A stretch of 49,565 nucleotides of DNA from Myxococcaceae bacterium (GTDB lineage: Bacteria > Myxococcota > Myxococcia > Myxococcales > Myxococcaceae). The notes below the pieces were generated by a model. It was not told the origin of the DNA. It saw nothing but the letters and a program-made list of their open reading frames with translations, and made no database searches. The stretch lies in assembly GCA_016793095.1 (NCBI GenBank), contig JAEUJQ010000084.1:1-49565 (forward strand). The letters run 5' to 3'. The position numbers were made by a program, and so were the translations under genes. Below are positions 19,897-26,592 of this stretch, in pieces (positions within the stretch are counted from its first letter, which is position 1; every line of letters starts with the position of its first letter).

Positions 19897-22800
19897 ATGC
19901 GACTCTTCCGACCTTCGACCCTCTTCTTCGCCGCCGCGCTCGCGGTCACCGCGGCCCCCGCCCTGGCCCAGACGACGTGCCCTGCGCAGATCGGCGGCGT
20001 GCAGTGCAACGGCGGGACTGACATCGAGAACGACTGCGACGGCGACGGCTGCCGGCGCGGCTACGGTGACTGCAACGACTGCGACTCCACCATTCGCGGG
20101 CCGGCGTGCCCCGGCGGTGGGCCGCGCATGTCACCTGCTGGCGCGGCGCCTGAGATCTGCGACGGCAAGGACAACAACTGCAACGTCACCATCGACGACG
20201 GGCCTGGCGGGGCGGGCACGGTGGACGCAGGACTCGCCTGCACCATCGGCTCGAACCAGGGCGTCTGCCGCGACGGCACGACGGCGTGCCAGGGGATGAT
20301 GGGCGTCATCTGCCAGCAGAACGTGATGTCGTCGATGGAGGTCTGCGACGGCCGCGACAACGACTGCGACGGCGACACCGACGAGACCGGCGGCGTCGGC
20401 AGCCCGAAGCTCATCCGCTCCTGCTTCCCGACGCCGGTGTCCACCTTCGGGACGCCGGGCGTCGGCATCTGCACCAACGGCCAGCAGGCGTGCAACGCGG
20501 CGCCGAACTCGGGCATGGCCAGCTACACGGCCTGCGGCATGTGCGGCGCGCTCGCGACGTGCGCTGCTCCGGTGGTCGCCGCCAACCCGCCGGCGAACGC
20601 CGAGCTGACGTGCAACGGCCTCGACGACGACTGCGACAACACCCCCGACGACGGCGTGCCCGGCACCGGCGGCTCGTGCATGGTGGCCGGCCAGCAGGGG
20701 CGCTGCGCGCAGGGCGTGCTGCAGTGCAGCGGCATGATGGGCATCCGCTGCGTGCAGGTGAACAACCCCATCGGCGAGACGTGCAACGGCCTCGACGACG
20801 ACTGCGACGGCTTCGTCGACGAGGCGGGCGCCACCGACCTCCCCAAGCTCAAGCAGACCTGCTTCCCCGGGCCGGGCACGCCGGGCCAGGGCATCTGCGT
20901 GAACGGCGAGCAGGCGTGCAACGCGACGGCGGGCAGCGGCATGGCCTCGTGGACGACGTGCGGCGCGTGCGGAGCGCTGGCCACCTGCTCGAGCCCCGTC
21001 ACCGCGGTGCCCGAGGTGTGCGACACGCTCGACAACGACTGCAACGGCGTCGTCAACAACGGCAACCCCGGCGGCGGCGCGGCCTGCACCAACACGTCCG
21101 CGAACGGCGTGTGCCGCCCGGGCACGCAGGTGTGTCAGGCGAACGGCATGTTGCAGTGCATCTCCACCATCATGCCGGGCACCCAGGCCGAGGTCTGTGA
21201 CGGCCAGGACAACGACTGCGACGGGGCGACGGACGAGACCGGAGGCGTGGGCAGCCCGACGCTCTCGCGCGTCTGCTACGCGGGCCCGGCCAACACGTTC
21301 ACCGGCACCTGCGGGTCGAACCCGATGAGCTGCACGCCTCGTGGTGAGTGTCGTGGGGTGCTGCAGGTCTGCCCCGGCGCCGGCGGCTTCCCCATGTGCA
21401 CGACGATGACGACCGGCGCTGACGGCGGCACGCAGCAGTTCAACGTCGCCGAGACCTGCAACGGGCGTGATGACGACTGCAACGGCACCAACGACAACGG
21501 CGTGCCCGGCACGGGCGTCATGTGCGTCAACGACGCCGGCGTCGGCGCGTGCACCAACGGCACCATTCAGTGCGTGGGCGGCGCGCTCGTGTGCCAGGGC
21601 ATGGGCGGGACGTCGGAGATCTGCGACGGCATCGACAACGACTGCGACGGCGACATCGACGAGTCCGGGGCGCCGGGCAGCCTGCGCCTGTCGCGGAACT
21701 GCTACGCCGGGCCGGTCGGCACCTTCACCGGCACCTGCGCGCCGAACCCCGGCACCAACTGCTCGCCGCGCGGCATCTGCCGGGGCGTGCCCATCTTCTG
21801 CCAGGGCGGCGCGTTCCCCGTCTGCACCATGGGCACGACCGCTCCCGACGGCGGCATGCAGGTGTTCCCGGGAACCGAGGTCTGCAACACGCTCGACGAC
21901 GACTGCGACGGCACCGTCAATGACGGGCTGTCGGGCGCGCCCTGCACCACCGGGCTGCCAGGCGTCTGCGCCGCGGGCACCGAGCAGTGCACCCCGATGG
22001 GCACGCTCGTCTGCCGGCAGAACCAGGACGCAGGCCCCGAGACCTGCAACACCCTCGACGACAACTGCAACGGCATTCCCGACGACAACGTGCCGCCGCG
22101 GCCGTGCTTCGACGGCCCCGCCGGGACCTTCACCGGCCTGTGCGGCCTGTCCGACGGCGGGACGCAGGGCTCGGGCGCCCAGTGCCTGACGCGCGGCCTC
22201 TGCAGGGCCTCGACGCAGCAGTGCAACGGCGCGGGCAACTGGCTCGCGTGCGGCGCCGGCCTGCCCCCCAACCAGCAGCAGGTGCTGCCGGTGCCCGAGG
22301 TCTGCAACAACCAGGACGAGGACTGCAACGGCACCGCTGACAACGGGCTCATCATCGACGCGGACAACGACATGGTGCGCGCGTGCGGCACCTGCGGCGC
22401 CAACCCCGACGGCGGCTGCGACTGCGCAGACACCAACGCCAACATCCGCCCCGGGCGCCTCGAGCTCTGCAACGGCTTCGACGACAACTGCAACGGCGCG
22501 ATGGACGAGGCGTCCACCGGCATGGGGAAGATCAGCCAGAGCTGCTACTCCGGTCCGCCCAACACGGCCGGCCGCGGCGTCTGCGTGCAGGGCACCCAGG
22601 AGTGCAACGCCGACGCCGGCTCGGGCACCGCCAGCTTCGGCGCCTGCATGGGCGAGCGCGTGCCGTCGATGGAGACCTGCAACATGCAGGACGACGACTG
22701 CAACGGCACCATCGACGACGGCTTCGACGTGGACAACGACGGGTTCCGTGTCTGCCTCGCGTGCGGGCTGACGATGAACTGCGACTGTGACGACACCAAC

Positions 22801-26592: not shown

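Follow-up and report, generated by a model that had tools for sequence, protein, structure and literature searches.

A conserved MopE-vWA fusion of a Myxococcaceae bacterium as a probable secreted polyprotein with an internal MYXO-CTERM tag and a second signal peptide

The window (the whole 49,565-nucleotide stretch of Myxococcaceae bacterium contig JAEUJQ010000084.1 that was analysed) has an ORF at 19897-26592 (+) in which a MopE half, a MYXO-CTERM-like sorting tag, a second signal peptide and a vWA lipoprotein half follow one another in a single frame. It is quite probable that this ORF encodes a conserved secreted polyprotein which would be split by MrtX and the lipoprotein machinery. From the comparison of orthologous sequences the conserved fusion is firmly established, and its processing into two products is likely. 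The sequence-only reading of this DNA had offered three options for the ORF: a lost stop codon, internal initiation giving a separate lipoprotein, or a genuine fusion processed in two. The fusion stands, while the lost stop is rejected and internal initiation is disfavoured. The fusion is backed by anatomy, conservation and recurrence, whereas the separation of its halves is what we infer.

Layout of the gene and its junction

The frame of the ORF is open throughout, at the coordinates first given for it, and translates to 2231 aa with no stop inside; from stop to stop it spans 2438 codons. All of its parts are on the + strand. Signal peptides were called by eye, from hydropathy and motif. The first one (MRLFRPSTLFFAAALAVTAAPALA, followed by Q; 19897-19968) is of the Sec type as read from the translation. 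The MopE half (19969-24840) matches Pfam PF11617 with an E of 8e-124 in 20 matched stretches and then passes into a Gly/Asp-rich linker.

The MYXO-CTERM-like tag (24841-24924, GCGCGAADGSAALLGVLGVLLASRRSRR) is at residues 1649-1676 as had been claimed, and no stop follows it. It runs from GCGC (Cys1650, Cys1652) through a hydrophobic helix to RRSRR and so has the Cys signature, the helix and the Arg-rich end of a MYXO-CTERM. The match to TIGR03901 is 17.4 bits (16.3 bits when the tag piece is scanned in isolation), which is below the curated cut-off of 20 bits; scores under the cut-off are also common among the C-terminal tags of the window's genome. The tag is not at the extreme C-terminus, as 555 residues lie downstream of it.

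The Arg-rich loop (RRSRRAARSASTARAGQ, 24910-24960), whose 5' end overlaps the tag, has a net charge of +6 and is predicted to be cytoplasmic. The second signal, with the core ALGLVLVGLLTTGC and the lipobox, occupies 24961-25002. The lipobox TTGC with Cys1702 had been claimed after the tag, and the Cys codon is indeed located at 25000-25002. The positive loop, the core ALGLVLVGLLT and a lipobox ending in Cys are those of a lipoprotein signal, although the -3 residue of TTGC is less canonical and the signal is internal (residues ~1689-1702) and not at the N-terminus of the primary product. The lipoprotein half (25003-26589) begins with a Gly/Asp-rich linker, which is followed by a conserved part of ~485 residues containing the vWA-like domain (25798-26394; limits approximate, taken from the structure model). 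The stop codon TGA is at 26590-26592.

The vWA label holds for the family, but the window copy itself has no significant VWA_2 match. Pfam VWA_2 matches 7 of the 12 family members (best 3.6e-8), with the window copy outside those seven, and a longer window piece gives an E of 0.13 only. The MIDAS-type D-x-T/S-x-S motif is DNTIS in the window and DNSGS-like in some orthologs. The structure model is of moderate confidence (mean pLDDT 67). Its PDB matches in Foldseek are led by vWA-containing chains, for example LapA vWFA 9no5 (TMt 0.67, TMq 0.30); the TMq of ~0.3 results from the alignment of only the vWA part of the model. The profile, Rossmann-like fold and MIDAS of a vWA domain are found by way of the family members and this moderate-confidence model. 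A search by sequence for a solved relative gave 0 matches at 0.1.

The CglD profile (NF033765) matches 12 of 12 family members (best 2.1e-25). The window copy, at 58.2 bits, stays far below the equivalog cut-off of 400. Like CglD, the second half of the family would be a vWA-containing lipoprotein, and the two vWA domains are related. CglD differs in that its description, in the accessible part of PMC4488436, is of a predicted outer-membrane lipoprotein and not of one half of a fusion. The window's genome also has a vWA paralog (L031) which reads as an ordinary N-terminal lipoprotein, MTRLSLVALLSAGVISC.

An antisense open frame (20131-26652, -, 2173 aa) lies opposite nearly all of the polyprotein gene and is probably a by-product of the high G+C.

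Conservation of the fusion and recurrence of the arrangement

Orthologs were searched with the C-terminal half, against relatives and then against 145 genomes of the order, at an author-chosen E cut-off of 1e-40. Matches at this E or better were found in 12 of the 145 genomes. The junction is readable in 11 genomes of five genera (g1, g2, g5, g16, g22), which are the window, G001, G002, G003, G004, G006, G007, G010, G021, G027 and G092 (the place also numbered L136). G056, of a sixth genus, matches as well; the contig end cuts its gene and the junction is unreadable. In G001 the ends of two contigs carry the pieces, C191 the junction and C359 the vWA half, and the two presumably belong to one gene. 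The 11 named records found are without exception MAGs, with the labels Myxococcaceae, Archangiaceae/Archangium, Myxococcus sp., Myxococcales and Deltaproteobacteria.

In 11 of 11 readable junctions the frame is open and both the CGC and the lipobox Cys are kept. A comparison of orthologs for a stop codon after the tag had been proposed, and none of these 11 junctions has one. A split ortholog is likewise found at 0 of the 11 readable junctions (145 genomes of the order, E 1e-40). It had also been held that uniformly fused orthologs with no MYXO-CTERM function would speak against a two-product fusion; the orthologs are all fused, but the Cys motif is present in every one of the 11 and MrtX is encoded. 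The identity of the vWA half among orthologs falls to ~50%, so the fusion is taken as old. The loop between tag and lipobox differs in length and sequence among the orthologs. The lipobox also varies in form and is non-canonical in some, from TTGC in the window to FFSC in G010. This G010 ortholog (L044 / L135) has a poor lipobox with the Cys retained.

The upstream gene P0002 (18350-19894, +; exact start uncertain) encodes a protein with, by eye, a signal peptide and a barrel-like C-terminus. Its stop is 2 nt before the ATG at 19897. In all 6 distinct orthologs that carry the upstream flank, a P0002 homolog lies directly upstream of the gene or overlaps it, and the polyprotein gene and P0002 probably form an operon. 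Pfam gives no match for P0002, and in BLASTP at E 1 it matches neither the eight fusion proteins encoded by the window's genome nor G021:C45. The downstream gene P0003 encodes a Peptidase_S15-type protein; since it is common only to the two nearest orthologs, it is outside of the conserved unit.

The same arrangement occurs elsewhere in the window's genome. With 150 of 285 candidates scored, 68 TIGR03901 hits there reach E 10 or better, and a tag was counted as internal where the frame continues more than 45 residues past the match. Nine of the 68 are internal, and eight of these nine run directly into Arg-rich residues, a second signal-like segment and more protein (C19:208993, C30:102633, C13:50225, C47:122100, C39:6652, C34:15490, C22:13589 and the window). 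Since the set was chosen regardless of what follows the tag, its choice did not presuppose a signal peptide behind an internal tag. The remaining internal hit (C74:50189) is without a second signal and looks like chance.

The halves of these tandems are unlike one another and represent several unrelated domain pairs. The window has MopE and vWA, C19 has CARDB/Ig repeats in both halves (by eye), C13 has kelch repeats and a small domain, and C39 has a matrixin-like protease and a short domain. C47 joins PKD repeats, with weak below-cut-off metalloprotease matches, to MopE repeats, and C22 joins a cadherin/Ig adhesin to OmpA. The C30 and C34 fusions have no Pfam match; the second domains of C30, C34 and C13 are mutually related. 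The frames of C19 (L107:3418-9792) and C47 (L124:5704-12147, -) each carry a terminal MYXO-CTERM tag besides the internal one, so that both predicted products would be myxosortase substrates. The C22 frame (L123:3528-10658) reads as adhesin, internal MYXO-CTERM, signal peptide and OmpA.

Other genomes were searched with two junction profiles, A3 from the eight own-genome junctions and A5 from 37 rows; both favour tandems by construction, and the counts are of candidates read, not totals. Measurements were made on 51 hand-picked junctions from 16 genomes, taken from profile matches, window orthologs and second-domain relatives. The set leaves out G033:C1, and also G021:C45 although the latter reads as a tandem. 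Every one of the 51 loops has a net charge of at least +3, which is partly by construction since the loop was defined to begin at the Arg/Lys cluster. A lipobox or AxA site follows the second core in all 51 (17 lipobox, 34 AxA, with the C34 site ALAC counted by eye as AxA against the script's lipobox label), but this rule is loose: of 771 places drawn at random from the frames of these tandems, 518 pass it (67%). Hydropathy is the stronger measure of the second signal: over the 51 tandems the median score of the best 9-mer in the second segment is 2.67, and 0.6% of the random places score as high.

A further 29 hand-picked candidates were read by eye, giving 26 tandems, one unclear case (G090:C68) and two that are not tandems (G047, G033). 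Genomes assembled into one or two contigs (G012, G085, G086) also have tandems, as do other families of the order (G051, G056, G073, G036). Among the matches listed in a profile search of seven genomes, G012 has a tandem and the frame of G033 ends 13 residues past the match. The finished, one-contig genome G097 has 0 internal tags among 28 TIGR03901 rows at E 0.5 or better. As read from these junctions, the tandem arrangement is real and recurrent and is unevenly spread. Since G097 is without an internal tag and the tag read in G033 is terminal, tandems appear to be frequent in the window's relatives and patchy elsewhere.

Second halves also occur by themselves. Among the matches listed, most relatives of the C34/C30 second domain sit in frames a few hundred residues long, the size that separate proteins would have, while some sit in long frames. 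In G042 a homolog of this domain is a separate gene right behind a MYXO-CTERM gene; the tag terminates in RRRRA-stop, and the ATG of the second-domain gene follows. The upstream (N-terminal) part in G042 has no match to the fused proteins compared, and therefore G042 is a neighbour pair in the same order and not a strict fission. The fusions could stem from such adjacent gene pairs losing the stop, a simple source since the hairpin would keep both halves exported.

Proposed processing and its alternatives

The MopE half would be exported by Sec. The MYXO-CTERM helix may then act as a stop-transfer anchor which leaves the Arg cluster in the cytoplasm, and the second hydrophobic segment would insert N-in/C-out and restart export as an ordinary signal peptide would, so that both large halves reach the periplasm. 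The positive-inside rule leads to this hairpin topology, together with what is published for MYXO-CTERM, whose Arg-rich end is cytoplasmic according to the accessible part of PMC11980579. MrtX is predicted to cleave beside the MYXO-CTERM Cys, so that the MopE half would be released and displayed on the surface by a lipid anchor. Lgt and LspA would act on Cys1702, turning the vWA half into a lipoprotein, probably an adhesin-like one of the outer membrane. In other tandems signal peptidase I may take the place of Lgt/LspA at the second signal. The short hairpin would be discarded after both cuts. Since two differently anchored partners would come from a single polypeptide, they would be made in a 1:1 ratio; judged by length, their sizes would be some 160 and 55 kDa.

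The enzymes for these steps are encoded in the window's genome. MrtX is found with 337.5 bits to NF040593 (cut-off 180), LspA has 2 hits and Lgt is above its cut-off at three places. As described in the available part of PMC11980579, cleavage of MYXO-CTERM by MrtX needs the tag Cys, and cleavage of the TraA tag by MrtX also works in E. coli. Another CPBP protease of the genome, on C20 (L128:2735-3601, -), matches the archaeomyxosortase MrtA with 70.8 bits, below the cut-off of 200.

It is unlikely, though conceivable, that the hairpin is left uncut and the product is a single inner-membrane protein with two periplasmic domains. The topology alone requires no cleavage, the positive loop suits a stable cytoplasmic loop, and the same sequence appearance would be expected apart from the conservation of the Cys residues. 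However, an uncut hairpin leaves unexplained why CGC and the lipobox Cys are both retained in 11 of 11 orthologs and why relatives of the second halves have N-terminal signals of their own. The presence of MrtX, LspA and Lgt in the genome also argues against it.

Internal initiation, with or without the long product, could also yield the lipoprotein as a second product, and its chances are poor. GTG 24886 and TTG 24898 are both in frame as the sequence-only reading said, just 5' of the Arg cluster; such codons are present in many tandems, and an ATG is found close to the Arg cluster in 12 of 51. However, no start-codon position is common to the nine family members compared, and five of the nine have no ATG between CGC and the lipobox. 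The G007 ortholog (L043) has a single in-frame start between CGC and the lipobox, a TTG where the first helix begins. In 14 of the 51 tandems the stretch that begins 6 codons ahead of the Arg cluster and extends to the hydrophobic core has no start codon, and six (C30, C13 and C22 of the window's genome, G003:C285, G005:C28 and G015:C37) have no ATG, GTG or TTG anywhere between the tag Cys and the second hydrophobic core. ATG is not enriched at the junctions (24 of 1460 codons vs 1.5% across whole frames). The mean SD duplex energy of 65 candidate starts is -2.24 kcal/mol vs -2.76 kcal/mol for 1505 control codons, and -6 kcal/mol or lower is reached by 4.6% of the candidates vs 13.0% of the controls. 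For comparison, the ATG at 19897 has an SD-like duplex of -6.1 kcal/mol upstream, in a range (-6 or lower) which 13% of control codons reach. Start position, ATG density and SD energy all disfavour internal initiation in general; it may act in single tandems.

An assembly or sequencing error or a recent stop loss in the window strain, which an assembly of 93 contigs might suggest, is rejected as extremely improbable because all 11 readable ortholog junctions are fused in separate assemblies, and like tandems are present in genomes of one or two contigs.

Known systems and wider significance

The proposed cutting of the polyprotein by MrtX and the lipoprotein machinery has partial precedents. 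Signal peptidase cleaves precursors such as the Bradyrhizobium fbcH cytochrome b/c1 protein and polyproteins of the flavivirus type at a signal sequence inside the chain. To our knowledge, these have no sorting tag beside the signal and no repeated arrangement within one genome. A Haloferax volcanii substrate of ArtA reportedly has a tripartite signal which is not C-terminal, so that a sorting tag is processed away from the C-terminus; this system is an archaeosortase one, unlike the myxosortase MrtX.

The closest case concerns MXAN_5598 of Myxococcus xanthus, an ORF with an internal MYXO-CTERM (Guo, Haft & Wall 2025, PMC11980579). In the accessible text, its authors suggest a gene fusion of which the N-terminal half is processed, term internal MYXO-CTERM motifs rare and cite internal processing of other sorting tags. 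MXAN_5598 resembles the window's protein, as far as that text describes it, in having an adhesin-like half, an internal MYXO-CTERM and a second envelope half, and its architecture is like that of C22:13589. It differs in that its second half is a barrel with an OmpA domain whereas that of the window is a lipoprotein. The motifs which the paper calls rare also contrast with the eight tandems of the window's genome. No second signal peptide, lipobox in the second half or general rule is mentioned in the available portion of the paper's main text. Among the matches listed for open-licence PMC articles, supplements aside, none combines MYXO-CTERM with a polyprotein or with a second or internal signal peptide. 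The internal MYXO-CTERM is therefore already known, while the recurrent two-cut tandem and the lipoprotein form appear to be new with respect to this portion of the literature.

The traA/traB pair of M. xanthus is similar in that a MYXO-CTERM protein is followed by an envelope partner. According to the part of PMC3325183 that was accessible, these ORFs overlap by four bases and serve one pathway. They differ from the window's gene in being two genes, unfused, with a stop codon between them. The fused pairs of the tandems hint at partners which may cooperate on the cell surface as TraA and TraB do.

The chances are somewhat better than even that the tandems represent a general myxobacterial module, in which a sorting tag and a signal peptide let one gene encode two separately anchored envelope proteins, released by two independent proteases. 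One ribosome-made chain would form a hairpin that sends both ends outside, to be cut by MrtX on one side and by LspA or signal peptidase I on the other. The 1:1 output and the co-delivery would be fixed, and the module would have arisen with many unrelated protein pairs. If true, it would be a bacterial counterpart of the viral secretory polyproteins. If the tandems are cut as proposed, some bacterial genomes would routinely encode secreted polyproteins that the usual sorting enzymes take apart. Gene finders would record each tandem as a single protein with puzzling domain content.

The tandem also provides a direct test of whether myxosortase requires a C-terminal tag. The window's gene is a natural construct for this kind of work, with two candidate lipid-attachment Cys residues in opposite topology 50 residues apart. 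Further tandems with other second halves, in which a lipobox-like Cys closes the second signal, are found at L216 (G007:C445), L338 (G030:C34), L341 (G091:C1) and L324 (G008:C209).
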